A stretch of DNA of 64,000 nt from Hydnum rufescens UP504. Lineage: Eukaryota; Basidiomycota; Agaricomycetes; Cantharellales; Hydnaceae. A model generated the notes under the pieces. It saw only the letters and a list, made by a program, of their open reading frames with translations. It was not told the DNA's origin and did no database searches. The stretch is taken from assembly GCA_014904985.1 (NCBI GenBank), contig MU128965.1, positions 37,494 through 101,493 of the forward strand, in the 5' to 3' direction. Every line of letters begins with the position of its first letter. Positions within the stretch are counted from its first letter, which is position 1. Both the position numbers and the translations under genes were made by a program. Below are positions 4,387 to 47,686 of this stretch, in pieces.

Positions 4387-7300
4387 ATGGCATCCTCCAC
4401 CAAACAAAAATTTGATGCTCGCCAGGATTTCAGCATTGAGGAGAATGGGGTAACCCACCACTACCACTTCATCCCCTCCCCAACCAAGAAACATCGCCGA
4501 AGATATCCTGTTGGCACTGCATACAAGGGTTGCATCATCCAGCCCATAGTCTATGAGGGTGCCAGCAACACTCCCGCCACCCCTGTCAAAGCTCGAAGCC
4601 GGGCAGTTATCCAGCCATCTCCCAGTCATCAACAGACCATCTGAAATTCTTCGCCTGGGGGGGCCTTTGGGGCTGCCAATGAGGGATGGGAGGACATTCA
4701 AGAGGAGGACATTTGAGAGGACAGTTGTACCCCTGGCTTGCCATGGCCGGACAGTCGTACGCCTCTACTGGGAAGTACCGCAACGGCTTCCCACCCCCGA
4801 TGGGAGAAATGGAAAGAAATTTCTGCAGACCACTGGAAGCACCTGATTCCCACCCTTGTCAGACCGTTCATGCACTGGTGCCAGGAGACATCATATGGGC
4901 GGCACGAGGGGTCTCAGCGCATCATACCCCTAAATTGCAAATGTGGGAAGAGTGCTCGCCGTGTGGAGGTGACGGCGGTGTACACGGACCGTGAGTTCAG
5001 GGAATACGACGCTTCCTTCCTAGCATTGAGGGATTTTTACTACCAGGACTGGAACACCACTCCTTGATGTATTGCGAATGTTGCCCTCTGGCCTTAACTT
5101 TAGTGGCCATGGGGCTATTTCCAGCCTCGCCGATTCGCCCTTCCATTGCCTTCTCCCTTAGCCATCTCCTCTTTGCCAGTAAACTCTTTGTCTATATATC
5201 CCCCAACATCACTGCCTGGTGCAGCACAATCAGTTCCAACCTCATTGAAAAGGGATTCACCCCTTCTGCTACCGTGAGTAAATTAATTACCCCTGGGGCT
5301 CTGATTTGAAGAGACTGAACAAGGACTCTAGGATGGTTTCCGCAAATCGTTCTCTACTGCATTGCAGCAGTTTCAACTAGTGCAACAGCGTGCGAATGAA
5401 TTAACATGGAATGTCGTCCATGCCTCCCACAGTGGTCCAGGGGGAGGGAACCTCTCTTCTGTAATGTATACCCCGGAACTGGTGAATGCCCTGTCTCAAG
5501 ACCCCATAGCCACTGGTTACTTCTTGAATGTGGAAGACCATCGGCCGCTTAGGGAGGATAGCGCCCCTAGTGCCCATCTCCATTCGCGTTGTCCATTGTG
5601 CTTTCCCATGGCAGAGGATTGTCTGGGGCTTCTACGAGAAGGCAATCACCTGTGGGCCTTTTCTACTCTCACTGGGATTGAAGGACACTAGGCCTAACTG
5701 TTCTGCACCCCTTGCGTAGGTTCCACTCTGTGCTATGTCTAGACGCATGCTTCGAACAGCAGCAATGTAAAGGGGTGGGATTACAAGACATTCGACTGGA
5801 TCTACCACGGACATGTTTCCTACTGACTGCTGAAGTGGAGAAGGCAAGACTTTATGTGGAGTCTCTCCGCCCTACTCAGGGCAAGCGGGGTAGAAAGAAG
5901 CTTGCCTCTGAATTGAATGAATTTGATGAAGAAGACTGGGTGGAACCAGGTTTACACCTCCCAAACTCAGTGGTCAATGGGTGCAAGACCTCCTTCAAGG
6001 CGGTGAACGAGAACCGTGAAAAGGCCTCGACCACAACCTTTGCCTCTACTGGCCTAATGGCTGCAATCTGTCGTCATGATAGGGTGCTACGGCTAGTCAA
6101 CATGACCACTGCAGGAGAGAAACAGTACTATGCAATAGCTCTTTTGAGTTCTCTTTTTGATGAGCTGCCTTCTTGGTGGAGGTTGGGGGTCCTCTACGAC
6201 ATTGCTTGTGTTTTGCATAGAAGCATGAACAAGGTAAATTTCCTGGTTTTGTTACCCCAAGAGGAGATATCCTGATTGTTCTGTGTTTGTGTTGGCAGTG
6301 GAAGATACTGCCATTGCTTCTGCCCAGGATTGATTGGGGTGTCTCAGTGTTTCATGCCTTTGGGCACCAGTGGCCTTGTCAATGTGTGTACCACCCCCAA
6401 AAACGAAAAGGGTTTGGGTTCTCTGATGGTGAGGGGTGTGAAAGGTGCTGGGGAGCATTAAAAAAGCTGGCCCCAGTGTTACGAGTGTCAGGGGTATGCC
6501 TTTTTATCTCAAAGTTGCTTTCTGAGACTTACTGCCCAATTTCTAGCACCACCGACGGCTGTTTGTTCTGAGTACTCAAGTGATACATTGGGATGAGATA
6601 ACAGCTCAATCACAAGCTGTGTGGTTAATGAAGCATTACATCTGTGCTGTTGTTCGATTGGAGGCTGCAAAGAAATGAATTGGGGAGAGTGGTGTGTCCA
6701 TTCTAACCCTTTGAGCCAGTTGGAAAGATCAGTTGGAGACCCAGTCTAAACCTCTACCCCATCAGTTGATGTTCTCTTCAGTGCAAAGTCTTGGAATGCT
6801 GACTCCCTCATAGCTGTTGCCAAAAATTTGGCAGGGGAGTTTGTGAACAAGATTGTCACCATGCTTGCAACCCATGCCAATGAAGAGGCTAGCCATAGGA
6901 AGTTACTCAAAGAGATATCACTGCTGGGAGAAGATGAAATAAGTGCTGATGCAAAGTTTGACCTCACTTTGCAAGCACAAAACAGGCAGGATTTCTTGAA
7001 CAGGCTGGCTACAAGAATTAGGAGGGCTTGTCAGCAGTTGGCACAGAAGGACCGGCCCACATACAGTGCCTTGGAGAAGGCCCGTAAAGACAAATTCCTG
7101 GGATTGCGGCTTCAAGCTCAGGCAGTAAAGCACCGATTACGAAGTCACATTCGAGAGCGCTGCTTTGAATCAGAGCGATTGGAGAGGTCTTATTTCCGGT
7201 CAACTCTAGGTAGGATTGTCATGATTGGGTAAAGGCCTTCTAAAGCTGACCTAGTGGTTCATTCATAAGATCATAAAGCACATGCACAGACAGCAGAGGC

Positions 7301-26560: not shown

Positions 26561-29194
26561 CCTTTATGTCACTTGAATCTTTTTCTTAAAACTGACCTCA
26601 CCTGGCAATGTGAACTTGTCATGGACAAGTCGTATTCCATTTTGAACCATTTCATCACCCAGCCAAGGCGGAACATCACCGTCGAACTCATCATCAGCAA
26701 GACTGATGTCCTGCCAAATGTCATTATCAACATCCAGGCTGAAGAGCCCTTTCATATCGATAGATGGTGGAATGAGAGCATTTCGAGGGATACCTTGATG
26801 ACCACAAAGCTTCTTCATACTTTCTCGGTGTTTATTGTACTCTGCAACAAGACCCTTGACGGATTGATAATGGCACTTGATTGCTCTGCTGGTGTGCTGC
26901 AGGGTACTATGGTCTGTAACACAATCAGATTTGCCAGTGAGCACAAGCAAATAGTGAAATAATAGATTATGAGTACACACCTACAGCCTTGATTCGAAAA
27001 GCACCAGTGAGATTATGAGTTTCAAAATTTTTCTTGCACACCCTTGCGATAATCCGAGCTTTGAGGGCACACATGTTCAGCTGATGTTCAAACCATGCAT
27101 GGTGTTTCATTTTTTGCAGTTGCTTGAATGAGACTGGATCACCAAGCTGCAACATTGCCGTCATATCCTCATCTTGTTTTGATAAATGTGAGATGACTTT
27201 CTCTTGCTCAGCAATTGCGGACATTATCTCACCAATCTCATTCCTACTGGAAATGCTGTCCACCACTGGGGCAGCAACAAGCTGTTGCTGGAGAGCTCTG
27301 ACCAAATCACGAGCCACATTAATGTGTTGACACACAGCAAGGATCTTCTCAACAGCATGGAAACCCTTTTTCTTGGATTGTCATTCCAAAGGTCAGCTTT
27401 GATATGCTCGTTGTTCTTCAAATTGTGCTTGAAGGTACTCGTCACTGTAGATAATTGCTGACCTCTTCTGCTGAGCAAGAAAAAGATGTTCCATCATTGA
27501 CTTCACACATCTCTCCAACCAGATTCCAGCCTGGGACAACTTAACATCATCTAGGTGTTCAATTTGGAGATCAAGGATGAACAACCGATGATGATATCCG
27601 GAAACATGCAGGTTGGGAATAAGACGCTGAAGGTCACTCCACAGATGCTCACAACCCTCACCATCCGTCAGCCCCCAGACATCCCCCTTCTGAGGATGAT
27701 ACCATAGCTGGCACACCCATTGATGACTGTATGCATGAAAAACACTGATGGCAAATATGATGCGTGGCATCCACTGTGGCAGAAGATCCCATTTGAGAGC
27801 ACTGCGGTGGATCTGGTAGCCAATGTCATACAGGATACCAACTCGCCAATGCTCAGGAAGCTCAGCCATGACCACATCGATAAGGGTGAAGGCATAGAAC
27901 TGCTGTTCACCAGGAGTCCACATACTGGCATAGACAATCACATGATCATGTCAGCAGACCACAGCTATCACTCCAGTGTTGGAGAAATGGTCCCCAGGTG
28001 TCTTTATTCTGTTTCCATCGGCTGCCACAAAGGACTCACCACAGGAATCAAGAGACGAATTGGGGACTTGTAGCCCTGGTTCGATTGCGTCTCCATGATC
28101 ATCATGAGGTGCATACTTGCCTTTGTTAGATCGTCTTGGGGCTTTGGCATTATTGCCTTCATGTTGCATGGAGTGTGCAGCCTCAACTCTCACTTTCCAA
28201 GCTTCCAGGAAACTGTGGGGTACTTCACGTGTTCCTGGTGCAACAATGCGAGGATATTGGACACCAGGTTGTTTCTTGTGGCCTGGACGTCAGTCATAGT
28301 CCTTGTTTCGGTGCAAAGCAAAGCAAGCATCAATGCATATGAAGAGTTCAGGGCTACAAAGGGTGCTTCATAAGTAAGAGTTAAGAACTATGTAGACATT
28401 ACTTACAGCTTGCTTCCTGTGGTCTGACCACCAGCTCCAGCACATAATGGGCATTGAGAACGAATATAATCAGATGGAGTAAGACAAGGATTACAAGGGG
28501 GTCCAGGTTTGGGACATCAGTACTTGGCAAATCACCATGAGAAACAGTGGGCACACTCTGAGAAGCAGTGGGCTTGTGAATAGTGAGGCTGTCGCTGCTC
28601 AGGGCACTGACATACAGCCAGTGTGTGATAGGGGTGATCACATCAATCTTTGGTAAAGGTATCACTTCAGACATGACAGCCTCTCATTCGATGGGGTCTC
28701 AGGATAGGACTTCCTGACGGGCAATGCCTATTTGCTTGTCCATTTCAGCATTGACAACTTGTATCAGAACTTGATACTGGTGCAGTGCAGTCCCAAATAT
28801 CCAACGGAATGAGTCTTTTGCATCGAATACATGTCCTCTCTTTGACAAGAACATTGTGAGAGCATCACACCATGTGGCTTCATTCAGAGCGAGATGGATG
28901 AATAGTGTCACAGTGAATTCCAGCATTTCCAGGCTGATTGCAAGGGCTGGATAAACAGGTGAGCAAGGAAATAGTCCTTGCTTTACTAGTTGAACTGGAG
29001 CACTCGCAGTTGTACATCGACACACAGCTTAGGGCGACTACTATGACCCCTTGAAGGTCCAATTTTAATGTATGAAACCCCCCCCTTGAAGGGTATGTTG
29101 GTAGCAGGTTATCACCTGCTATTCCTGGATGCTACAGAATGACATTCTGTACCACCTGCTATGGTGGATTAATAGTACCTACTATCAAATCCTG

Positions 29195-30235
29195 TTCACC
29201 TACTATGAAATGCATATCACCTGCTATGAAATGCATATCACCTACTATGGAATTGATATCACCTACTATAGAATCACCTGCTATGGAATGCATATCACCT
29301 GCTATGGAATGCATATCACCCTGCTAGGAATGATATCACTGCTGTGGAATGCATATTCACTGCTATGGAATGCATATCACCTCTGGACATGTAGGAATCA
29401 TATCACCTGCTATGGATGCATATCACCTGCTATGGAATGCATATCACCTGCTAGGAATCCATATCACTGCTATGGATTCCATATCACCTGCTAGGAATCC
29501 ATATCACCTGCTATGGATTCCATAGCAGCTGCTAATGGAATCCATATCACCTGCTGTGGAATCCATATCAGCTGCTAAGAATCCATATCACCTGCTAGGA
29601 ATCCATATCACTTGCTATGGACTCCATATCCAGCTGCTAGGACTCCATATCAGCTGCTAGGAACTCCATATCACCTGCTAGGAACTCCATATCACCTGCT
29701 ATGGACTCCATATCAGCTGCTAGGAACTCCATATCACCTGCTAGGGAATCATATCACCTGCTATGGATTCCATATCACCTGCTAGGGATTCCATATCACC
29801 TGCTATGGATTCCATATCACCTGCTAGGGATTCCATATCACCTGCTATGGATTCCATATCACCTGCTATGGATTCCATATCACCTGCTAGGAATCCATAT
29901 CACCTGCTATGAATTCCATAGGAGCTGCTATGGAATGCATATCACCTGCTATGGATCAAATCTGCTATGGATGCATCCTGCTAGAGATGCATATCACCTG
30001 GTAGGAAATCATAACCTGTATGGATTCTAGCGCTGCTGTGGATGATATCACCTTATGGAATGCATAGCACTGCTATGGAATGCATATACTTGTAGGAATC
30101 CATATCCCTGCTAGGAATCCAATATCACTGCTGGAATGCATATCACCTGCCTAGGTCTATCCTGCTAAGGAAATCCATGCATCACTGCTATGGATTATAG
30201 CAGCTGCTATGGATGCATATCCTGCTAGATCATAT
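29195..30235. repeat. 21-bp repeat array, left arm of E1
   Basis: Degenerate units containing CACCTGCTATGGA and CATATCACCTGCTA, with many 1-2-bp indels. It is the mirror of the right-arm array, which is much cleaner. Confidence 0.85.
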
Positions 30236-30629
30236 CACCTACTATGAAGATATATCTACTACAGCATGATATATACAGTGCTTTGTAATTTCTAATATGG
30301 CATAATGGCCACATTACATAACAAATTATAAATGTGGATGACTAATATATTCTTATAATAAATTACTAATTTGGCTATTACCTAATCTGGCTATTACCTA
30401 ATCTGGCTATTACCTAGTCTGGTATTACCTAATTTGGCTATTACCTAATTTAATTATCACCTAATTATGGAATTTAATAATTAGTTAAGCTTACTTTGAG
30501 TCGCTGGGCACTTTCAGCCAGTTACCCACCACAGGGAAGATGGGGGGGCTGGCTCTGAAGTTGAGGGGGGACCTGAGGGGGCACTAAGAGGGTGAGGAGG
30601 CATCTAGGAGTCAGTCAAGTGGGGGGGGG

Positions 30630-30727
30630 CTGTATTGGGGAGACAATAGTCACTAAAAAAATATCAAGAGTCATGCAAAAAGAGCAGCCAGAGGCTGCTC
30701 TTTTTGCACCAAGCAATCACAACATAC
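30630..30727 (-). other. Hairpin intron in E1 left arm (98 bp)
   Basis: Minus-strand donor AAG/GTATGT at 30727, acceptor AATACAG at 30630. The interior hairpin (30674-30708) pairs TGCAAAAAGAGCAGCC with GGCTGCTCTTTTTGCA. The preceding exon ends in a palindrome around CCAGT/ACTGG. Confidence 0.65.
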
Positions 30728-31181
30728 CTTATCACCACACCCAGTCTCTACTGGGGTGGGGTGGCTTCTCCTGGGCTCTCAGTAGGGGATGAGGTTGAGT
30801 TGGGTCAAGTTGATAAAAAAAAACTTTCAGCTCTTGCGGAAAATTGAATCTGCGACTCAACACTGGCAATTGCCTGGTTCCAACAGCATATGATGTGCGG
30901 GTCAATACCACATAGCACAATGCAGTAAATAAATAAATAAAACAGTATATAATATCTATACTGTTTTATTTATTTATTTACTGCATTGTGCTATGTGGTA
31001 TTGACCCGCACATCATATGCTGTTGGAACCAGGCAATTGCTGGTGTTGAGTCGCAGATTCAATTTTCCGGCAAGAGCCGAAAGTTTTTTTTTTATCAACT
31101 TGACCCAACTCGACCCTCATCCCTACTGAGAGCCCAGGAGAAGCCACCCCACCCCAGTAGAGACTGGGGTGTGGTGATAAG

Positions 31182-31278
31182 GTATGTTGTGATTGCTTGG
31201 TGCAAAAAGAGCAGCTCTGGCTGCTCTTTTTGCATGACTCTTGATATTTTTTTAGTGACTATTGTCTCCCCAATACAG
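31182..31278 (+). other. Hairpin intron in E1 right arm (97 bp)
   Basis: Mirror of the left-arm intron: donor AAG/GTATGT, acceptor AATACAG. The hairpin TGCAAAAAGAGCAGC / GCTGCTCTTTTTGCA is at 31201-31234. The exon before it ends ACCCCAGTAGAGACTGGGGT, a perfect hairpin. Confidence 0.65.
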
Positions 31279-31724
31279 CCCCCCCCACTTGACTGACTCC
31301 TAGATGCCTCCTCACCCTCTTAGTGCCCCCTCAGGTCCCCCCTCAACTTCAGAGCCAGCCCCCCCATCTTCCCTGTGGTGGGTAACTGGGCTGAAAGTGC
31401 CAGCGACTCAAAGTAAGCTTACCTAATTATTAAATTCCATAATTAGGTGATAATTAAATTAGGTAATAGCCAAATTAGGTAATAGCCAGACTAGGTAATA
31501 GCCAGATTAGGTAATAGCAGATTAGGTAATAGCCAGATTAGGTAATAGCTAGATTAAGCAATAGCCAGATTAGGTAATAGCCAGATTAGGTAATAGCCAA
31601 ATTAGGTAATGTTTATATAATGAAGTATATTATGTCATCCATACATTATATAATTGGGTATTATGTAATTGTGTGCCATATTAGGAATGATTACAAAGCA
31701 CTGGTAAGGATATATCATGTCTGT

Positions 31725-32815
31725 AGTAGGTGATATGGATTTCCTAGCAGGTGATATGCATCCATAGCAGGTGATATGCATTCCATAGCAGCTGCTATGG
31801 AATCCATAGCAGGTGATATGCATTCCATAGCAGCTGCTATGGAATCCATAGCAGGTGATATGGATTTCCTAGCAGGTGATATGGATTTCCTAGCAGGTGA
31901 TATGGATTCCATAGCAGGTGCTATGCATTCCATAGCAGGTGATATGCATTCCATAGCAGCTGCTATGGAATCCATAGCAGGTGATATGGATTTCCTAGCA
32001 AGTGATATGCATTCCATAGCAGGTGCTATGCATTCCATAGCAGGTGATATGCATTCCATAGCAGCTGCTATGGAATCCATAGCAGGTGATATGGATTTCC
32101 TACCAGGTGATATGCATTCCATAGCAGGTGATTTGGATTCCATAGCAGGTGATATGCATTCCATAGCAGGTGATATGCATTCCATAGCAGCTGCTATGGA
32201 ATCCATAGCAGGTGATATGGATTTCCTAGCAGGTGATATGGAATCCCTAGCAGGTGATATGGATTTCCTAGCAGGTGATATGGAATCCCTAGCAGGTGAT
32301 ATGGATTTCCTAGCAGGTGATATGGAATCCCTAGCAGGTGATATGGAATCCCTAGCAGGTGATATGGAATCCCTAGCAGGTGATATGGATTCTGTAGCAG
32401 CTGATATGGATTCCACAGCAGGTGATATGGATTCCATAGCAGCTGCTATGGAATCCATAGCAGGTGATATGGATTTCCTAGCAGGTGATATGGAATCCAT
32501 AGCAGGTGATATGGATATTCCTAGCAGGTGATATGAAATCCATAGCAGGTGATATGCATTCCATAGCAGGTGATATGCATTCCATAGCAGGTGATATGCA
32601 TTCCATAGCAGGTGATATGCATTCCATAGCAGGTGATATGCATTCCATAGCAGGTGATATGCATTCCATAGCAGGTGATATGCATTCCATAGCAGGTGGT
32701 AGGGATTCTATAGTAGGTGATATCAATTCCATAGTAGGTGATATGCATTTCATAGCAGGTGATATGCATTTCATAGTAGGTGAACAGGATTTGATAGTAG
32801 GTACTATTAATCCAC
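31725..32815. repeat. 21-bp repeat array, right arm of E1
   Basis: About 52 units of 21 bp with core AGCAGGTGATATG followed by CATTCC, GATTCC or AATCC variants. Interspersed GCAGCTGC palindromes add local symmetry. Units vary by substitution, not length. Confidence 0.9.
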
Positions 32816-33825
32816 CATAGCAGGTGGTACAGAATGTCATTCTGTAGCATCCAGGAATAGCAGGTGATAACCTGCTACCAACATACCCTTCAAGGGGGGG
32901 GTTTCACACATTAAAATTGGCCCTTGAAGGGTATTTGTAGTTGCCCTGTTATGTCGACACATGCGTAACTCAATGCTACCAAGACCTATGGAAGTCTGTC
33001 TGTTAGTTAGAATCTAACCATGATATTAAGGCAAAACTACATACGATCCATGTAAACAGTAGTAACCACCTTAAATACTGCAGGGCCACCACATGAACAC
33101 TTGACTGACACATGATCTATGTGAGATTGGCCCCACTTCGACTGGCATATGTACTGCATATATGGACGAATTAAGGAGGGGATAATCTTGTGATCCCACC
33201 TCTGTGCTGTGGCAGCCCAGTGACATGCATGACAAGACAGCACCTGCTCCACTGAGAAGTGATCTAAACCTCTGGCGTATGTTGGATATTGTACAGAAAA
33301 CGGGCATTCCACAGCTTCTGGCAATGGAGCCTCATGATGAGGGGTACTATCACCACCTACTGCAGTAGAAAACAGCGATGTGTGGCATTCCTTGTCATGG
33401 AGATTGATGGATGACATGGCAGATGATACAGGTCGATGATAATGGGGTGCTGAGATTGCTGGTCGTGCAGGCCGGTTAACAGCCTTATGCACTGGCACAA
33501 TGGTAACAAATGTGCCAGTCTCCTTGTCCAACTTCCACACAGAAAAAGTTGCAATCAGTGCTAGTTTCTTAGGGCCTTTACGACCTGTCAAACTTGAGGG
33601 CTCCTGCAGAAGAATTGTTTTGGGAGCCACCGATTTCTTTGAGATCCCACAATGGGCACATCTGGGAGGTTTTGGACAAGTATTGGCCACATCCTGGAAC
33701 AAGGCCACGCCTGCCTTGAAGGCATTTGTATATGTGGAGGAGGGGTCAGTCATACTGTCTTGTGGTGGACTGGACCCCCATTTTCTCTTTCTCAAGCCAC
33801 TGGTATTTGGGTCATGGGTTGACAT

Positions 33826-34200: not shown

Positions 34201-35359
34201 AGTCCTGCCGACAGATGGAGCTGTTCAACTCCTCGGATTCTGCCAATGAGGGGTACCAAACAAGTAATAATAACATTGTTGCAGAGAACAAACGATGTAG
34301 GAACAAGCAACATAGATAAAAAAAAAACCCATATGTCAAGGCAGCTCAACGACCAGATGCCATTTCATATTGGATTTAATCCCAAAAGTCTCTGAGACTC
34401 CAAACTCTTCAGTGTACCCAAACCAATCCAAAAACCTGACCAGCTCATTGCGAAGAACCACATGTGAGGAGAGAGTCTGGTCTTAAATGTTGCAGGCTTT
34501 CTTGACCAGAAGGCATGAAGCAGCATCATAAACTGTCGAATCCTGAGACTGATAGAGTCGGGGCCTTCATTCTGCTCTTGGAGGGTAATATGCATCTCAA
34601 AATCATCGGTGGTGAAGGAACATGTGGCCATTTTGTGTACATTGCCAGGCGATAGTTGGGGGGAAGAGGGTGGAGGTCATGCTCAAGAAATTGGGCCCCA
34701 TCTGTGCTGAGTCGATGTGAATACTGGGTGCAACAGTAAGTAAGGCATCCCGTTCCTCCAGTGACCATGCTCAATCATACACCACAGAGGCATAATGCAA
34801 GTCCATAGCCTTGCACCCAATTCCAGCATAATCAACATTGGGGAGTGTGATAAACTCAACACCTAGATAATTTTGCGCCTTGGCTATTGCATGAATATTC
34901 TCCAAGGCACTTTGTGCCCATATCTGGTCCTTAAAATAGATGAACATCTTGTACACAATATGTCCTTGACTCTTTGACTGTTTTTTGTTGGCACGAGAGC
35001 AACTCATTGCCAATGCACCCATCGGATGGAATTCTTCCAAGGCCTCCCACTCATATAGGCGAGCATTCTGTCCTTCAGCTTCATCAACCTGCCATTTGTT
35101 GATGGCAACAACATACCATGTCCCCAAAGCAGGGATGGAAGCCATGGCAGCAGGGGAAACAGCAGGAAAGGCAACAGGAGCAGGAGGAATAACTGAAGAG
35201 GGGGGGCAATTGCAGTGGGGGGGCAACTGCAGTGATGGGGGCAATGGGTGTGGGAGGGGTGATGGACGCAGGAGGGGTAACCCAACGGGGGAGGCAACTG
35301 CAGCAGTGAGGGCAGCTACAGCAGGTGGGGCAACTGGAGCAGGAGGGGCGACAGGAACA

Positions 35360-36115
35360 AGGGGGATGACAGGAGCAGGAGGGACGACAAGAGTGGGAGG
35401 GATGATGGGAGTGGGAGGGATGATGGGAGTGGGAGGAACAACGGGAGTGGGAGAACAATGGGAGTGGGAGGAACAATGGGTGTGGGAGGAACAATGGGTG
35501 TGGGAGGAACAATGGGAGCGGGAGGAACAATGGGTGAGGGAGAAACAACGGGTGAGGGAGAAACAATGGGTGAGGGAGGAACAATGGGTGAGGGAGGAAC
35601 AACGGGTGAGGGAGGAACAACGGGTGAGGGGGGAAACAATGGGTGAGGGAGGAACGACAGGTGAGGGAGGAATGATGGGAGCAAGAGGGGCAACAGGAGC
35701 AAGAGGGATGATGGGAGCAGGATAGTGGGAGTGGGAGGGACAGTGGGAAGTGGGAGGGACAGTGGGAGTGGGAGGGACAGTGGGAGTGGGAGGGACAGTG
35801 GGAGTGGGAGGGACAGTGGGAGTGGGAGGGACAGTGGGAGTGGGAGGGACAGTGGGAGTGGGAGGGACAGTGGGAGTGGGAGGGACAGTGGGAGTGGGAG
35901 GGACAGTGGGAGTGGAGGGACAGTGGGAGTGGGAGGGACAGTGGGAGTGGGAGGGACAGTGGGAGTGGGAGGGACAGTGGGAGTGGGAGGGACAGTGGGA
36001 GTGGGAGGGACAGTGGGAGTGGGAGGGACAGTGGGAGTGGGAGGACAGTGGGAGTGGGAGGGACAGTGGGAGTGGGAGGACAGTGGGAGTGGAGGGACAG
36101 CAGGAGCACAAGGGA
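35360..36115. repeat. 18-bp coding minisatellite in the Ulp1-domain gene
   Basis: Units containing GGGAGTGGGAGGGACAGT, nearly perfect at 35725-36115 and diverged before. On the coding (minus) strand they encode alternating Pro/Thr/Val (PPTPTV) or, shifted, Ser/His/Cys-rich repeats. Several units have lost a G, switching frame, so the long Pro-rich frames on this strand overlap. Confidence 0.85.
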
Positions 36116-37074
36116 CAGTGGGAGCAGGAAGGGTGACAATAGGAAGCAGAGGCGGACTATCAACTGAGATGGAGCTGAACTTCATCTCCATTGCAGATTG
36201 CTCTCCAGCATCCACAGTGTTCAGACGGCTCCTATGACAAGAGGACTCAGCATCCAACTGTGAATCCTCTCGTTGAACAGATGAGGGGGCAATGGAGGTC
36301 ATGTCAGCAGGAATGTAATCAGACTCATTGGGGAGGATGAGAGCTGGAGGCCTGCAAGATGGAAAAATTGATTCCAATGCGGAATCATGTTGACAGGGAT
36401 AGTCGATGACCCCTTGAATTGTGTCAACTGTAAACTGAACCCTCACCGCAACAACCTCAGTTGGGCAGAGAACCTTCCAAGGCTGAATCCCAGCACAGTT
36501 ACGAAGGTTGGCCATAACAAAAACCCCACAGTCTATGACTCCCATCTGCTGTGGAGACTAAGTAACCATGGTCAGAAAAGAACTAGTGACAAAAGATCTC
36601 ACTCACAGTCTCCTCGGACCCAACAAAAGTCCATGCCTCAAGGTCAAAAGAACATGACTCATGGGCAGCGAGGTCTGCCAAGTATTTGGCCACCACCTTG
36701 GTCAGTCATCTAAGCCTACCTAGTTAGGTACCACTTTTGGGGCAGATAATGGTACCTAAGTAGGTCCCATCACTATTCTGGCCGAAATGGCCATTTTATG
36801 GCCTGCACCTTCTAGCCCAGAATTGGCTGAAATGGCCAAAAATTGGCCAAAAATTGGCCGAAACTGGGACTTAGAGAATCTCAGACTTGCAGGACAGCAG
36901 GCCATATGAACTTATTGGTGATAATAGTGTTCCATTTATAATTATTTATTTATTATCACTTATTATACATATATTTGAGGCCTGCCTAGGTGGGCTTTCT
37001 GGTTACCCATTTGCATGTTGAGCACTCGCCCAATTAGGACTTATTTATTTATTTATTTATTTAAAAATTCAATT

Positions 37075-37460
37075 AGTAAAAAAATACCACACCCACTTGG
37101 GCGGGTGTGGTACCATCCATAGAAATAAAATAAAAAAACTACTTAGTAGCACCACACACCTGCATGGGTGGGTGTGTGGTACTGTCCTTAAAAATAAAAA
37201 AATAACAAAACTACTTAGTAGCACCACACACCCACATGGGCAGGTGTGTGGTACCATAAAAATAAAATAAAAATAAAAAATAAAAAAAACTACTTAGTAG
37301 CACACACCCGCTTGGGTGGGTGTGTGGTACCACCCATAGAAACTTAACAAAAAACTAAGTAGCACCACACCCACTCAAGCGGGTGTGGCACTGTCCATAG
37401 AAATTTAAAAAAAAAAAAACAACCTAGTAGCACCACACACCCGGCCTAGTGGGTGTGTGG
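37075..37460 (-). repeat. Tandem exon-type palindromes in E2 left arm
   Basis: Six copies of a palindrome (CACACCCGC / GGGTGTGTGG type) spaced about 75 bp, separated by A-rich sequence with CTACTTAGTAG. No intron hairpins here, so these look like amplified exon-end palindromes. Confidence 0.7.
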
Positions 37461-37768
37461 TGCCTTCCACTTCTTCATCGGGACTCGGTGGGCTCATCGC
37501 TGGCCATTTCAAGGGAAGGGGGGCCATGGCTTGGCAGTTCACCATTGGGCCAGTCGTTTGGACTGGTCCCTAGTGTCTGTTGGGGTGGGCACACCCATGG
37601 TAGTGGGTGTGTGGTCTGGCCTGGTTTCACTCCTCGGTTCAGCAGGTTTCGTTCAGCACTTGTTTTGGTGGGTCGCATTGTTGGTTTCCATGTGGCGGGG
37701 GCATTGTCATTCCCTGGGGGGGGTTCCTTTGGCAGGTCTTCATTTTGGTGTTTGTGGTAAGGCGGTAC

Positions 37769-37870
37769 CTAGAATAATAAATAATGTGTTAGTAAAAAAT
37801 TAAAACCAGCGTAAAAAGAGCAGCATCTGCTGCTCTTTTTACGCTGTTGTGGGTACACGAGGTTACTTAC
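37769..37870 (-). other. E2 left-arm hairpin intron (102 bp)
   Basis: Donor AAG/GTAAGT at 37870, branch-like ACTAAC, acceptor TATTCTAG at 37769. Hairpin 37808-37845: AGCGTAAAAAGAGCAGCA with TGCTGCTCTTTTTACGCT, where the usual C/G pair in the outer stem has become T/A on both sides. Confidence 0.75.
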
Positions 37871-37959
37871 CTTGTATAGAACCACACACCCACCATAGCG
37901 GATGTGTGGTTCATGCGGTATAGAAGAAGGATTGGAGCTCCGATGACTGTCAAATCAAA

Positions 37960-39400
37960 CTCTGGTTCAGCCAGTGTGTAGATGGGAGACTGTATTTCTG
38001 TTTTTATTCAATGGGCTGGTTCACTCTGATGGTTGATCACTCTCTAACAAGTTAGGTATGGTATTCAGTGGAGGATAAGATTGTGGTATGGACTAGCTAT
38101 AGTCAATGATATATCGTGGATGCTTGTGAAAGGCTTATACGTGTTGTATTGAACTGTTTACTGCTATTTGTGGGTACCTATTTGTGTCCTCCTGGTCAAA
38201 ATGCGGATTCTAAAGAGGACTCTAGACTAGTTTAAGCTTGATTTAGTATGTCAATGTGTTTCTTTCTTCTTCTGACCTAACTTTGTTTTTACTCACCTTT
38301 CCTTGGATGTCCAGCAACTCTAACCTTAGGTCCTGCAACTATCCTTGGCTCAGTATTTCACGTAGAGGGCTTCCAGTGACTTAGTCTTAACAACCTTGTA
38401 TATGACTTAGCTCCAGATGGCTTTAGATCAGTACTCTCTTAAGATGCAAGCAGATTTGTAGACAGTAGTATATTCCAGTAGTGAGAAGATGATGGGGGGA
38501 TACAGAAAATCTACCAAGCTTTTATAAACCTTTTGATAGTGCTGGTTTAAAAGAATATGACCTCACTCCTAGGTGATCATATGTGAGGGACAATTAGGGT
38601 TGTCAAGGGGGTGAGTCATTCATAAAGTGGTTGCATGATGGTGAGTCCATTCATAAAGGGTTGCAAGGAGGGTGAGTCATTCATAAACAGAAACAAAAGG
38701 GTAGTCAAGGGAGTGTTTTTATCTTCTTATCATGTTTCTAGAAGTTATTTGTGGCAATGGGAGATGAAATCAAAGGATATTTCTTGAGTTCTTGGGAGAT
38801 TATTTGTTTGTAGTCCAGTGTTAAGATGGTTTGTTGGTTGATAATGGACAAGTGCATGGGATGGGATTTGGACTGCAGAAACAACAATTTACATCCGTTA
38901 ATAGACGTTCTTGGGTATCAATTCGATTGCGATTTTAACCAGGCTTTCTGGGCGCGGTGGTTCCAAAATCCGGTGTAAACGACAAGAGATTCATTTTTTA
39001 CTGATGGGTGTTGATTCTGATAGTAATATTGTTCTGTAGAGTTCAGTTTTGATCTGTTCTTCATGTGCTCAGTACCGTTGGATGCGGATTTTTTATATCT
39101 TTTCAGGCGCGGTTGTTCCGAGAGGATTGGATGTGAACTGATGGAGAAATTCATTTTTTACTGAAAATCCAGATTTTGACAGTAATATTGGTCTGGAGTG
39201 CATTTCTGGTCCGTTCAACTTGTGTTTGGTACCATTTGAAAGGTATGAATCGTGGCTTTCCAAGAGTTAATGGGCGTACCTCTCCGATCAAAACTGACGG
39301 AGTTATAGAACGAATTCGATTTCTGTGCATAGCCATAATTGATTTCATAATAGGTCACATGATCATTCCAATGGCTGGATCAATGGATATTCGCATTTTC
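37960..39400. other. Foreign insert in E2 left arm
   Basis: About 1.4 kb without palindrome modules, between one intron donor (39536) and the next module. 38890-39330 resembles the interior of the long LTR family R (GGCGCGGTTGTTCCGAG, GATCAAAACTGACGGAG), so it is probably a related LTR or fragment. I could not fix its ends. Confidence 0.45.
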
Positions 39401-39663
39401 TGATACTGGATGTTTTTATCTTCCACAGCGGGTTCCGGTGTTGTTTCATGTCTTCATTTGGCATGTCGTCGTCATGGTTTTGCGGTTATTGTTTTGGGGG
39501 GGGGCTGTTTCCTTTCACGTGTACAGCTTTACTTACCTTGTAGTACCACACCCACCGAAGTGGGTGTGGTACTCATTCGTACTGCAGTCGCGTGCCTTCC
39601 TCTATCGGGTTTTCATATGGGGCTCAGGTGGGTTTGGGGGTTGTTGGGCGCGGACTCGTTAAC

Positions 39664-39769
39664 CTAGAAACTATAATAAAAAATGAATAATATGTTAGTA
39701 AAAAAGAAAGAAAAACCTACATGCAACAGGAGCAGCGTATGCTGCTCCTTTGGTGCAATAAAAACTTAT
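39664..39769 (-). other. E2 left-arm hairpin intron with mutated donor (106 bp)
   Basis: Acceptor TTTCTAG at 39664 and branch-like sequence are normal, but the donor reads AAG/ATAAGT (G to A at +1). Hairpin 39723-39756: GGAGCAGC pairs with GCTGCTCC; the A-T pair next to the core in other copies is G-C here. Confidence 0.6.
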
Positions 39770-39983
39770 CTTAAGATTACCACACACCTGCCAAAGCGGG
39801 TGTGTGGTTTGTCTGGGGGGTTCCATGGTCCTGTGTCATGCGTCCTCATTCCTGGGTTTTGTTTGGCGCTCGTTCTTTTGGCGGGGCGCGTTTGTGGCTT
39901 TCGTTTCGCGGGGGCATTGTCATTTGCGGGGGGGGGTTCATTCGGCGGGTCTTCATCTTGCTGAATGTACTTCAGGCGATAAC

Positions 39984-40076
39984 CTAGAATAATAAATAAC
40001 GTGTTAGTTTTAAATTAAAACCAGCGCAAAAAGAGCAGCATTCACTGCTCTTTTTGCGCCGTTAGACCTTACTTAC
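39984..40076 (-). other. E2 left-arm hairpin intron (93 bp)
   Basis: Donor AAG/GTAAGT at 40076, branch-like ACTAAC, acceptor ATTCTAG at 39984. Hairpin 40024-40059: GCGCAAAAAGAGCAG with CTGCTCTTTTTGCGC. Confidence 0.75.
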
Positions 40077-40326
40077 CTTATGTAGAACCACACCCGCCTC
40101 AGCGGGTGTGGTTCTGTGGGGCGTGATGTCGGCAGTGTCATTGGGCATGGTGTCGTTGAGCCGCTCGATCGGCCCGTCCCCATCGCTGGCATCCTCGTCG
40201 TATTGCATTGTCGTTTGGCATGGTTTTGCTCAGCGGGATTTCATTCGGTGGGGTTCATTTGGCGTGGTGTCGTTAGTTTGGTTCATTTGGCGGGGTTTCG
40301 TTCGGTACCTGGGACCAGGCCATGAC

Positions 40327-40429
40327 CTGGAATAATAAAAGTATGTTAGTAGAAGAATTGAAAGCAGCGCAAAAAGAGTAGCTTGCACTACTCTTTTTGC
40401 GCTATTGTATCTATTGGGATAAAACTTAC
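40327..40429 (-). other. E2 left-arm hairpin intron, first of the minus gene (103 bp)
   Basis: Donor AAG/GTAAGT at 40429, branch-like ACTAAC, acceptor ATTCCAG at 40327. Hairpin 40366-40403: AGCGCAAAAAGAGTAG with CTACTCTTTTTGCGCT. The core C-G pair of other copies is T-A here, changed on both sides. Confidence 0.8.
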
Positions 40430-40509
40430 CTTATGACCACACACCCGCATCAGCGGGTGTGTGGTCGCTGTGGTCGTGGTCATGCACTGTTGCCATTGCT
40501 GCTGCTGCC

Positions 40510-40576
<67 letters not shown>

Positions 40577-40741
40577 TTGCTGCTGCTGTTGCTGCTGCTG
40601 TTGCTGCTGCTGTGTGCCATGCGGTCGCATTCCTGTTGCTGGGTGTGGCTGCATAGTTGCGAAATTCAATGCCAGGCAATTGCTGACACTCGAGAAGCGC
40701 CCAAGCGCTGGCACTGCAAGCACAGTACACAATAGGAACAA
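40430..40741 (-). CDS. First exon of the E2 left-arm minigene, with a CAG-type repeat
   Basis: 104 codons from the ATG at 40741 to the donor at 40429/40430. It starts MFLLCTVLAVPALGRF, signal-peptide-like, then a run of about 37 Gln encoded by CAG/CAA, and ends HPLMRVCGHK, encoded by the exon-end palindrome. The mirrored right-arm exon keeps the same N-terminal coding (LCAVLAAPALGRF) without the Gln run. The downstream exons have stops in this frame, so a functional protein is doubtful. Confidence 0.4.
40490..40615. repeat. CTG/CAG trinucleotide repeat
   Basis: About 40 triplets, mostly CTG or GCT with TTG interruptions. It is present only in the left arm; the mirror position in the right arm lacks it, so it expanded after the arms formed. 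Confidence 0.9.
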
Positions 40742-41310
40742 GCATGTATATTTAAAATAAATACTATATAATAAATATTTGCCCAGGAAAACCTGAAGAA
40801 GCCAATGATAATGAGTCAGAGCTCAATAAGGCATGAGATGGCTAATTGCAGAGTGGATTGGGCCACTTCTACACATCAGAATTGGCCCAAATTTAAATAT
40901 AGTAATGGCATATATACACCCTACATGGGCGATTGATTATCTCGGATGATAATCGCATTTTTCAATTTTTCACGCCTTCAATTCCCTATTTAGGGAATTG
41001 AAGGCGTGAAAAATTGAAAAATGCAAGGATCGTCCGAGATAATCAATCGCCCATGTAGAGTGTATATATAACACTACTATATTTAAATTTGGGCCAATTC
41101 CGATGCATAGAAGTGGCCCAATCCACTCTGCAATTCGCCATCTCATGCCTTATTGGGCTCTGACTCATTATCATCGCCTTCTTCAGGTGTTCCTGGACAA
41201 ATATTTATTATATAGTATTTATTTTAAATATACATGCTTGGTACTATTGTGTGCTGTGCTTGCAGCGCCAGCGCTTGGGCGCTTCTTGAGTATCGGCAAT
41301 TGCCGGCATT
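40670..41310. repeat. Central palindrome of E2
   Basis: Two arms of about 310 bp (40670-40986 and 40993-41310) around CAATTCCC-TATTTA-GGGAATTG. Arms differ by scattered substitutions and short indels. The two divergent minigenes start in the outer part of each arm. Confidence 0.9.
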
Positions 41311-41411
41311 GAATCTGCATCTTGCTTCCATCTCCGCAACCACAACAAGCAACTGCCCGAAAAGGCAAGCACACGACCACGCACCTGCCTCTGCGGGTGT
41401 GTGGTCACAAG
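41234..41411 (+). CDS. First exon of the E2 right-arm minigene
   Basis: ATG at 41234 opens a frame (CCACSASAWALLEYRQLPA) up to the donor at 41411/41412. The frame homologous to the left-arm exon (LLCAVLAAPALGRFLSIGN) is also present but lacks an ATG and hits TGA. The exon ends in the palindrome CCTGCCTCTGCGGGTGTGTG. Coding status is doubtful. Confidence 0.35.
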
Positions 41412-41517
41412 GTGAGTATTTTTTTTAGTAGATACAATGGCGCAAAAAGAGCAGTGAAAGCTGCTCTTTTTGCGCTGCTTTAGAATTTTTTTACTAACGC
41501 GCCTTTATTTATTTTAG
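41412..41517 (+). other. E2 right-arm hairpin intron 1 (106 bp)
   Basis: Donor AAG/GTGAGT, branch-like ACTAAC, acceptor ATTTTAG. Hairpin 41440-41475: GCGCAAAAAGAGCAG with CTGCTCTTTTTGCGC. Confidence 0.8.
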
Positions 41518-41871
41518 ATTGAGGCCTCACAACGAGAGCCCAAACGGGAACCGACGCACAGGGAATGTGACATGCAGCGCAACGCACGGGAACGCGACAT
41601 GGCAGCGCAACGTATGGCAATGCGACACAGCAGCACAGTGTACGGCAACGCGATGGCAGCGCAACGTATGGCAACGCGACACGCAGCACAGCGTACGGCA
41701 ATGCATGGCAGCACGATGCATGGCAACGCAACACAGCAGCACACACATGCAATGTGACACAGCAACCCAACGACGCGATATATGGCACTGCGCCAAACGA
41801 GGACACGACCGCGTCAAATGACGCGCCAGGAATCACACACCCGCCACAGCGGGTGTGTGGTTCCATATCAG
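41518..41871 (+). CDS. E2 right-arm exon 2, Arg/Ala/Met-rich open frame
   Basis: Open for 79 codons in phase 0 (REPKREPTHRECDMQRNARE, then repeats of MAAQRMA), ending at TGA (41755) before the palindrome CACACCCGCCACAGCGGGTG. Internal GGCAACGCGA-type repeats. No known domain. Confidence 0.35.
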
Positions 41872-41978
41872 GTGAGTTCCTCCCCCCCACTACCTACAGC
41901 CATGCAAAAAGAGCAGCGAAAGCTGCTCTTTTTGCATGTTCTTTAATTTTTAACTAATTTAAAAGTCGTATTGTCTAG
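41872..41978 (+). other. E2 right-arm hairpin intron 2 (107 bp)
   Basis: Donor CAG/GTGAGT, branch-like AACTAAT, acceptor TGTCTAG. Hairpin 41901-41938: CATGCAAAAAGAGCAGC with GCTGCTCTTTTTGCATG, closed by a GAAA (GNRA) loop. Here the outer pairs are CATG/CATG instead of GCG/CGC, again changed on both sides. Confidence 0.8.
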
Positions 41979-42149
41979 GTCTCGAGTCTCTTTGCAAATG
42001 AATACCGATGCAAAACCCCCCGCAACCCCACTTATCGACACCTGAACGACGGGGCACAGAGAAGACCTGTACGACCAGTCATACGGATGACCTGGAGTAC
42101 ACGGTCCCAGTACCCCACACTCCCGCAGCGGGTGTGGGGTACTACAAAG

Positions 42150-42265
42150 GTATGTCTCTTTTATTTTTTTTATTTCTTATTCTTGTGGCGCAAAAAGAGC
42201 AGCATAGGCTGCTCTTTTTGCGCTGCATTGCTGTTCTACTAACATTTCATCATTTATTTCTCTAG
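42150..42265 (+). other. E2 right-arm hairpin intron 3 (116 bp)
   Basis: Donor AAG/GTATGT, branch-like ACTAAC, acceptor TCTCTAG. Hairpin 42188-42223: GCGCAAAAAGAGCAGC with GCTGCTCTTTTTGCGC. The exon before it ends ACACTCCCGCAGCGGGTGTG. Confidence 0.8.
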
Positions 42266-43855
42266 ATTCTGAACCAGAACCCCCGCAAGCCCCCAAGGAG
42301 AACCCGCCGAATGAGACGCGGCAAACAATTACCGCGAACGAAGCCCCGCAAATGAAGACCGACCCCTTCAAGGGAGCGCCCAAATGGAACCGACCCTGAC
42401 TGGGGCATATGGACCCCACCCACTGCGGCGGGTGTGGTGGGTATATGCAGGTGTGTGGCCTGCATGAACTATGCCCCCCCCTGTGGTGGCAAACCCCAGG
42501 GGGGGGGGGATAATATGTATATAGCATAATATGTATATAATAATAGTAGTAATAATAATACATAGTAAACAAACAATAGTAAATAAACAAATAATCTAGC
42601 ACAGCCATGGATTGGCCGATAGATGGCCAAAAAAACTGAATTGGAATGGCTTGATTTCGGCTGAAAGGTCTGGGGGACCTCTTAGGTACCATTTTCTGCC
42701 CTGAAAGTGGTACCTAAATTAGGTCCCCTATGTGACTGACCAGCCTGTTGGCCACAATCATCTTCATAAATTCGAAGTTGGGAAGCCAAAATATTGAGTC
42801 CAGGTATGTGACAATGCATCTCTTGAAATCAATAGAGACAACTGCCCAGTGGTTCTGGGATCCAAGATGGATTGGCATGGCAATTCGCTCCATGTACATA
42901 AAGACAGGATGACAAAGATTTTTGTGCCATGATGCCACTTTGGTGAAACCATCACGCAAGCATGAGAAGAAAAAAGTGTTGAAGACATGGACAGTAGGGC
43001 GAGCAAACATCTTCAGCACATCAATATACAAGTTGATGGCATCATCATTGACCTGACTGACTTGAAGCATACTGAGACCTTCAGGAGAAGGGAGGTGGTG
43101 AGGCCATGGCTTCTGCCCATACTTCCTGTTGGCGACATTCTGAATCTGAGCCAGGAAAAGGGTTGTTAAATTCAGCTGCACAGAAAAGTTTGAAATCCAC
43201 TTACAGTCATTAGGACTATCTGGGGCAGATCTGAATAAAGATGGCAGGCTGCAAGGTCCCCAAGAGCCAAAGTCGTGAGCAATGGATCCAGCAGAGGATT
43301 GACCTGTGCTGATTCTAGTGCACCAGGCGCATTTGGATTCAGAAGCAGGAAAGCAGAGGGAGGAAAACTTTGAGCGCAGAAGAAGGGGCCCGGACCCAAG
43401 AACTTTGCCACCACTTTGTAGGACTTCATCGTAAGTGGTATGAAAGGGCGTTGGGGGGTTGCAGCCATCAAGGTTTTGAGAAGCGCCTGCTCTTCATAGC
43501 ATAGCTTCTGTCCCCATCCCCTGGATCGGGAGTAGTCCCCTGGGTAGCCATGACTAGGGGCTGAGAACCAAGGGAAAGGATGTTCAACGGGGGGACATAC
43601 TCCACTGATATGGGGAGGAAATTATCCCCAGGTGCGAGTGTGACATTCGTCAGGTTCTCCCAAGGTATCTTCGCACAACCCACCCTGTCCCAAACTGTCT
43701 CCGACTGTGGTACAAAAACTGAGACAACAAACACAGGAACTCCATCTCGCTCTAATCCCTTGACGACCCCAAAGACACGAGAGTCCTCCATGTCATCCTC
43801 ATGGAAGACAGCACCAATAAGTTTGTTATCTACCCCAAAATGGGGACAAGGCATC

Positions 43856-44575
43856 TGTCAGGGTTTGTCCCTTACTCTGGTCCACTCTGGTCCACTCCAG
43901 TCCACTCCGGTCCACTCCGGTCCACTCTGATCCACTCCGATCCACTCCGGTCCACTCCGGTCCACTCCGGGTCACTCCAGTCCTTGTCCACCCACCTCCA
44001 GTCCAGTTCTCCACTTAGTTCCTTCGCCCAAGTCCACTTTGCTTCCAGTTTGACTCCGATCCAACCCTATCTTGGTTTCATTTCCCTTTCATTTCCCTTT
44101 GCTTCCAGTTTGCCCCCTGGTCGAGTTCCTGTTCCTGTTCCTGTCCCCCTTGTAACCACCCACAGTTTAGCGATCACTCCCCCGTAGTATAGTCATCATG
44201 TATAAGTAGTCTGAGAGCGAAGTCCAGAGACCCCAGCTTTGGTCTCTCAGGATTTCCGCTGTTTACTCCAGACTACAGGTCAGCCTTCATGTATTCCATA
44301 TTCATATTACATCAGGATCTCATATCTCAGGATTCTGCTGTTACTCCAGACTACAGCTCCGAGTATCATCCAGTTGACTCCATGAGCTTAAGGACTGCTG
44401 TGCTCATTTCCGCCTAGTCCCTTCCAGGCTGCTGGACCGCTCCTCCGACATCCCTAACCTCCTTATCTCATTCTTGCCTGGATTCTTGCAGACTTAGCCG
44501 GACTTACACTGGACTTAACTGGAATTATTTGTGTTTACATTTGTTTGGTGCCCTCGTCGCAGCATGGCCCTGACA
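43856..44575 (+). mobile_element. Solo LTR of the TGTCAGGG family without matching target repeats
   Basis: 720 bp, TGTCAGGG to CCCTGACA. The flanks GCATC and CAAAA differ, unlike the clean solo LTR at 15592. This suggests recombination between two LTR copies, and it may be a rearrangement breakpoint. It terminates the Ulp1-gene frame at its left. Confidence 0.75.
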
Positions 44576-47262: not shown

Positions 47263-47686
47263 TGAGATTATGTAATATGAATACAGAATACATGAAGGCT
47301 GACCTGTAGTCCGGAGTAACAGTGGAAATCCTGAGAGACCAAAGCTGGGGTCTCTGGACTTCGCTCTCAGACTACTTATACATGATGACTATACTATGGG
47401 GGAGTGATCGCTAAACTGTGGGTGGTTACAAGGGGGACAGGAACAGGAACAGGAACTCGGCCAGGGGACAAACCAGAAGCAATGGGAAATGAAAGGGAAA
47501 TGAAACCAAGATAGGGTTGGATTGGAGTCAAACCGGAATCAAGCCGGAAGCAAAGTGGACTTGGGTGAAGGAACTAAGCAGAGAACTGGACTGGAGGTGG
47601 GTGGACAAGGACCGGAGTGATCCAGAGTGGACTTGAGTGGACTGGAGTGGACCGGAGTGGACCGGAGTAAGGGACAAACCCTGACA

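Follow-up and report, generated by a model that had tools for sequence, protein, structure and literature searches.

What are the hairpin-bearing introns that recur along one stretch of the genome of Hydnum rufescens UP504, and what keeps their stems paired? The window analyzed here, 64,000 nucleotides of contig MU128965.1 (assembly GCA_014904985.1, positions 37,494 to 101,493 of the forward strand), contains two elements, E2 and E1, for which an initial annotation had reported introns that each enclose a covarying hairpin. On balance, we favor reading E2 as a non-autonomous DNA transposon. It would carry a pair of multi-intron, non-coding transcription units that diverge from a central inverted repeat, where they would start, and whose intron hairpins would act in the manner of zipper stems.

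The reported hairpins were all located, seven in E2 (near 37814, 39726, 40029, 40372, 41445, 41907, and 42193; positions are those of the window) and two in E1 (at 30678 and 31205). The annotated canonical borders were borne out for every intron except the E2 copy near 39726, where the donor (exon AAG, intron ATAAGT) has AT in place of GT and the intron measures 99 nt with one acceptor and 106 nt with another. The six remaining E2 introns are 102, 93, 103, 106, 107, and 116 nt long (units 1 and 3 to 7 below). Four compensated stem variants had been listed, and each was found: GCGTA/TACGC at 37814, GGAGCAGC/GCTGCTCC at 39726, GAGTAG/CTACTC at 40372, and CATGCA/TGCATG at 41907. The description of the loops as freely varying was slightly overstated; among 184 intron loops of four nt, 59 conform to GNRA when read on the sense strand and none does so on the antisense strand, an excess that by our own rough estimate is mostly explained by A-rich loop composition. 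Two features went beyond the annotation. The exon of each unit holds a second covarying palindrome, and the units form arrays that diverge, are apparently non-coding, and lie within a transposon that has terminal inverted repeats (TIRs) and a target-site duplication (TSD). Each unit is ordered as T-poor exon, exonic palindrome, donor, intronic hairpin, TACTAAY branch site, and YAG acceptor. The exonic palindrome, CACACACCCGC..GCGGGTGTGTG, ends ∼12 nt upstream of the donor (median; interquartile range 10–14 nt, 186 units), and the branch motif lies a median of 24 nt from the intron end. The median hairpin intron is 106 nt long, or 69 nt without its stem.

The borders of E2, placed at 36694 and 42747 by alignment with other copies, are inverted repeats of the CAGGCTGGTCAGTCA type. 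The left TIR (CACCTTGGTCAGTCAT..., 36694..36780, forward strand, inner limit approximate) begins at an alignment border common to loci L016 and L024 (L-numbers denote sampled loci). The right TIR (CAGGCTGGTCAGTCAC..., 42648..42747, reverse strand, inner limit approximate) recurs in further genome copies; a first look for its type gave 646 genome candidates, and the 40 that were scored yielded 42 matches. TIRs are present in many copies. A perfect 8-bp TSD, TTGGCCAC, flanks the window copy at 36686..36693 and 42748..42755. When the flanks were joined with one TTGGCCAC copy they read FEFMKMIVAKYLADLAAHESCSFDLEAWTFVGSEET, which equals P0001 except at two residues, and the C48-protease frame runs on across the element site once the element and one TSD copy are removed. 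A homologue search with the interrupted protease returned five proteins, three under the name Hydnum rufescens UP504; the identity of P0001 to this genome does not exceed 91% over its main part and reaches 96% over residues 1–78. The TSD was examined in three copies, and the two further copies with both ends showed 7 shared flank bp (L016, GATGTTC; L022/L024, TCCCACT).

Within E2, units run outward from a central inverted repeat at 40675..41304 (314-nt arms, 92%, 2-nt spacer), and comparable centers occur in other elements. The reverse-strand arm comprises unit 4 (40323..40466, 140.2 bits, GAGTAG/CTACTC), unit 3 (39980..40115, 132.9 bits), unit 2 (39667..39809, 89.6 bits, AT donor), and unit 1 (37765..37911, 139.5 bits), which is complete from exon palindrome to acceptor with its intron at 37769–37870. 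The forward-strand arm comprises unit 5 (41375..41521, 138.1 bits), unit 6 (41831..41982, 123.8 bits, CATGCA/TGCATG), and unit 7 (42111..42269, 107.2 bits). Bit scores refer to the unit model, whose own alignment includes units 3, 4, 6, and 7. Among filtered units of the sample described below, neighbors no more than 1.6 kb apart had the same direction in 149 of 169 pairs, 16 pairs being divergent and 4 convergent. A terminal-repeat motif lay between the partners in 3 of the 4 convergent pairs; the fourth is probably one miscalled L018 unit that also gives one of the 16 divergent pairs. Long inverted repeats with arms of 116–328 nt occupied 13 of the 16 divergent gaps, E1 among them; of the other three, two lacked such a repeat when scanned without gaps and the third was too short for the scan. 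Nothing obviously resembling a transposase appeared in the open reading frame (ORF) lists of the window, L026, and L028–L030, of which L026, L028, and L029 are mostly N, and no family search was made on the element ORFs. KDZ transposase domains do occur in the window at 5682–6272 and 27393–27950, outside the element, and these fragments are possible relatives of its source of mobility.

The family is large. A search of 63.2 Mb (539 contigs) found the exact hairpin pattern AAAAAGAGCAGC-N(0-30)-GCTGCTCTTTTT at 2355 places and the exon palindrome pattern CACACACCCGC-N4-GCGGGTGTGTG at 1007, and either pattern reversed at 0. The sample consisted of twenty loci surrounding the first 50 exact places and the window (one of the twenty was all N), with six loci added later; L001–L004 were omitted as they are covered by L005–L007. 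Scoring of 286 loose candidates left 205 units that were kept by splice score, 204 with a placed intron hairpin and 186 with a placed exon palindrome (1 and 19 without). The exact pattern was matched by 70 of these 205, and scaling the 2355 places accordingly gives ∼6,900 hairpin-intron units genome-wide, a rough and probably low estimate because most loci were picked around exact matches. Beyond this genome, viral contigs gave 0 matches; 6 contigs of a bacterial collection matched and are presumed to be ordinary intrinsic terminators.

Splice signals accompanied the hairpins even when these were chosen without splice criteria. Of 215 hairpins matching both arms at 8/11 or better, 211 had enough surrounding sequence, and a splice score of at least 7 was reached by 195 in the better orientation and by 7 in the other; at a score of at least 9 the numbers were 150 and 1. 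Random sites away from hairpins reached these scores in 180 and 20 of 2000 cases, respectively. Donor, branch, and acceptor consensus sequences thus stand in order in one orientation, and the T content of the sense strand is 11.9% in exon bodies (131 exons) and 49% in introns. A tree built from 208 units placed 0–1 changes on deep branches at the donor GT, the branch-site A/T/A, the acceptor AG, and most columns of the hairpin core. Over most of the 3′ arm of the exonic palindrome the number was 0–3, versus 8–15 in downstream exon columns. The donor, branch, acceptor, and hairpin-core columns changed less on terminal branches as well. As far as sequence comparison can tell, this pattern suggests that the splice signals and hairpins were important in the lineages that spread.

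Covariation was assessed in an alignment of 66 diverse units (62 of 72 chosen, 10 having been removed by hand, plus four window units), in which 92.4% of 2079 cells were paired over both hairpins. Two-sided changes were present at 25 of 32 pairs, compared with 12.9 (sd 1.5) in 500 shuffles and 7–12 with slid partners, and in 142 cells, compared with 52.3 shuffled and 18–50 slid. RNAalifold independently recovered both stems, with 25 pairs. In a parsimony reconstruction of the intron-stem core (pairs 2–12; 202 units), deep branches carried 9 two-sided pair-preserving changes versus 4 single changes from paired states, and four slid controls gave 0 two-sided changes there. Terminal branches carried 6 two-sided and 73 single changes; mostly broken pairs are expected there for copies decaying after insertion. 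In the exon palindrome (pairs 4–11), 16 of 32 changes on mid branches and 11 of 76 on terminal branches were two-sided and pair-preserving, with slid controls giving 0–1 on deep and 0–1 on mid branches. The number of CA repeats equaled the number of TG repeats in the opposite arm in 67 of 81 readable exon palindromes, ∼43.5 being expected from the margins by our own arithmetic.

According to the mechanism that we propose, each module of a transcription unit would comprise exon, exonic hairpin, donor, intronic hairpin, branch site, and acceptor. The intronic hairpin in the pre-mRNA would loop out ∼40 nt and draw the donor and branch site closer, so that splicing of introns of ∼106 nt would come to resemble that of the shorter introns of the host (49 and 58 nt). 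More speculatively, clean splicing might let the transcript escape splicing-coupled silencing. The host introns that could be placed are one of 58 nt in an RNA-polymerase gene, where it presumably fits a conserved protein motif, a second 58-nt candidate in the same gene, and one of 49 nt in the C48 gene. The annotated suggestion that the hairpin could shorten the donor-branch distance agrees with the few measurable host introns and is a rough geometric fit. In Saccharomyces cerevisiae, splicing is aided by zipper stems lying between the donor and the branch point, for which published modeling sets minimum distances of 10 nt to the donor and 20 nt to the branch point and a total of 42–85 nt (PMC12350175). 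Here, 203 of 204 introns lie within the donor limit, 88 within the branch limit, and 158 within the range for the total.

Several results weigh against this reading. No more than 68 of the 204 introns fall within all three yeast limits at once, chiefly owing to the short distance (median 19 nt) between the end of the stem and the branch A. The conservation analysis was partly ascertained, as the hairpins had been selected by core similarity and oriented by splice score. The excess of compensatory changes in the intron-stem core did not extend to small clades of 2–3 copies, where 2 two-sided changes stood against 8 single ones. Only 2 of 15 deep-branch changes in the exon palindrome were two-sided and pair-preserving, and part of the two-sided changes there may be repeat-length shifts. 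An open sense frame was found in 69 of 130 exons, compared with 48.7 (sd 4.9) in dinucleotide shuffles. Pairing in the sense RNA predicts that single changes leave G.U more often than A.C. The intron-stem core lacked such a bias (G.U:A.C of 3:2 on internal and 19:17 on terminal branches), and pairs 13–15 were balanced (14:17 internal, 28:29 terminal); CpG positions of the stem likewise had G.U and A.C in roughly equal numbers. The outer pairs 16–18 did show an excess of G.U (20:7 internal, 14:7 terminal); it was left uncounted because the flanking intron has its own bias (C>T:G>A of 148:83 over the deep and mid internal branches), beyond which the excess does not clearly go. Pair 1 (7:0 internal, 16:4 terminal) is confounded by CpG at the loop, and the CpG pairs of the exon palindrome were balanced on terminal branches (32 G.U versus 39 A.C). 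With the strand test negative, covariation alone does not distinguish pairing in RNA from symmetry in DNA or copying between arms. The annotation had attributed the pairing to selection or to a copying mechanism; pairing was indeed kept in multiplying lineages, and that is the right pair of alternatives, although the two are not separable here.

Single changes are strand-symmetric both along the intron stem and at the exon palindrome's CpG pairs, as would be expected if the palindromes act as DNA, either as sites for dimeric proteins or as single-strand hairpins in transposition or replication, with the arms kept alike by symmetry selection or template-switch copying and the splice signals common to all copies as units were duplicated whole. 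The preponderance of two-sided changes over intermediates on deep core branches also fits that account, to which we give a minority share of credence. Pairing in RNA is preferred on two grounds: in both E1 and E2 the hairpin keeps a fixed place, after the donor and ahead of the branch site, and deep branches show conservation of the splice signals in their own right; the switch in sense-strand composition at the splice sites likewise argues against a purely DNA-level role. A further proposal, which we consider improbable, is that the RNA pieces are the product, with the intron hairpins feeding small RNAs, or the exonic hairpins masking the exon-junction-complex site (taken here at its generally assumed position) and stabilizing a non-coding spliced RNA. 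The 18-pair stems, with 94.6% of cells paired, would suit this, as would the 10–14 nt between exonic hairpin and donor, whereas a comparison of 36000–43000 with Rfam gave 11 weak matches, none at the gathering score.

Thousands of similar introns might also bring to mind introner-like mobility, in which each hairpin intron itself moves and creates an intron where it lands. That origin appears highly implausible for this family, because TIRs and TSD belong to the whole element and another family hairpin lies within 800 bp at 47 of the first 50 exact places; of the rest, two have one at 1.0 and 2.0 kb and one at 4.7 kb, and this isolated copy (L019, near 4015) is without splice signals. No single introns in genes, with boundaries of their own, were seen among those 50 places, which lie on four contigs. 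Descent from a decayed array of protein-coding genes is only slightly less implausible. In its favor, the sense exons are poor in stops (summed minimum of 82 versus 124.7, sd 8.2, in shuffles), a significance that is overstated because the exons are related. Against it, of 88 pairs, 26 were testable, and an open frame ran on across the splice in 7 of these, with 13.7 expected by chance; exon lengths were mixed modulo 3 (41, 57, and 33 of 131 exons leaving 0, 1, and 2); and the paired CA/TG length changes in the palindromes shift the frame. A spliced coding product was itself judged unlikely, and the spliced product reads as non-coding despite the low number of stops.

The transposon is of a known general type. 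It resembles non-autonomous TIR transposons of the hAT and Zisupton (KDZ) groups in its TIRs, the 8-bp TSD of the window copy, and the lack of any noticed transposase; Zisupton makes 8-bp TSDs and hAT elements usually do, according to PMC12730594. Agreement with hAT is limited to the 8-bp TSD, and the two other copies, with 7 shared bp, depart from 8-bp systems. The interior differs from that of such elements in consisting of apparently non-coding intron units directed outward from a central inverted repeat. Compared with yeast zipper-stem introns, the linker sum is alike in most introns, whereas the median stem-to-branch distance falls just under the modeled limit, and the introns here, which lie in transposon arrays, belong to one repeated family whose stem is nearly identical across thousands of copies. 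Introners (PMC9860276) are likewise high-copy similar introns tied to transposons; here, the TIRs and TSD lie on the whole array element, and no single introns in genes were found within the sampled loci. Foldback-type or palindromic transposons have long internal symmetry. E1 (∼29.1–32.9 kb, by eye) is the element most like them; the differences are that the central repeat parts two intron-bearing arms and that E2 has short TIRs of its own. Titles and abstract openings in the literature gave no account of non-coding multi-intron arrays in transposons, which is weak evidence of absence, and an interior of this organization was without description in the literature looked at.

A bolder version, which we put forward tentatively and as less probable than not, is that splicing itself is the selected cargo: the element would encode no protein and would spread by clean host splicing of divergent pre-mRNAs made of hairpin-zipped introns and paired exonic hairpins. 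Clean splicing could then, for example, sustain transcription of the element and spare it silencing in a fungus where poor splicing of transposon RNA triggers silencing. In Cryptococcus, transposon-type transcripts that are spliced inefficiently feed the production of siRNA and RNAi (PMC5851062), and an element built of clean introns would be a testable counter-strategy to silencing of that type. If the transcripts are spliced, the success of a transposon would be tied to splicing without any protein. The ∼6,900 hairpin introns in non-coding mobile DNA also amount to a natural library of intron variants within one genome, displaying splice signals, compensated stem variation, and conservation in spreading lineages beside later decay.

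Other features of these elements and their surroundings were noted. E2 contains a 1.5-kb insertion of a different repeat (37918..39433), the same block as in L005 and L009. At the distal end of its reverse array lie short tandem units (37049..37462, reverse strand; repeat families D11/D14, weak model hits) that have an exon-type palindrome, a T-rich spacer, and a CTACTTAGTAG-like box and are without the AAAAAGAGCAGC hairpin. A long CTG/CAG run at 40487–40615 adjoins the first reverse unit, and a similar CAG run is found in an L030 exon. The E1 units (30626..30763, reverse, 68.8 bits; 31145..31282, forward, 83.7 bits) are placed one per arm in a near-palindromic element (29100–32890, limits by eye) centered near 30952, where tandem repeats of 21 bp and 16 bp flank both sides of the center. 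A block of four units is present twice in tandem in L030 (4568–7212), hinting at array growth unless it is an assembly artefact, and near 6251 in L010 a related element with CAGCCTGGTCAGCCAA ends is seemingly nested in an exon of another copy. Elsewhere in the window, 225-nt inverted repeats (44039–44263 and 47318–47542; 96% complementary, 3 kb apart) are perhaps another transposon, and an 18-bp minisatellite at 35200–36100 overlaps long open frames, one of them with the last part of the C48 gene.

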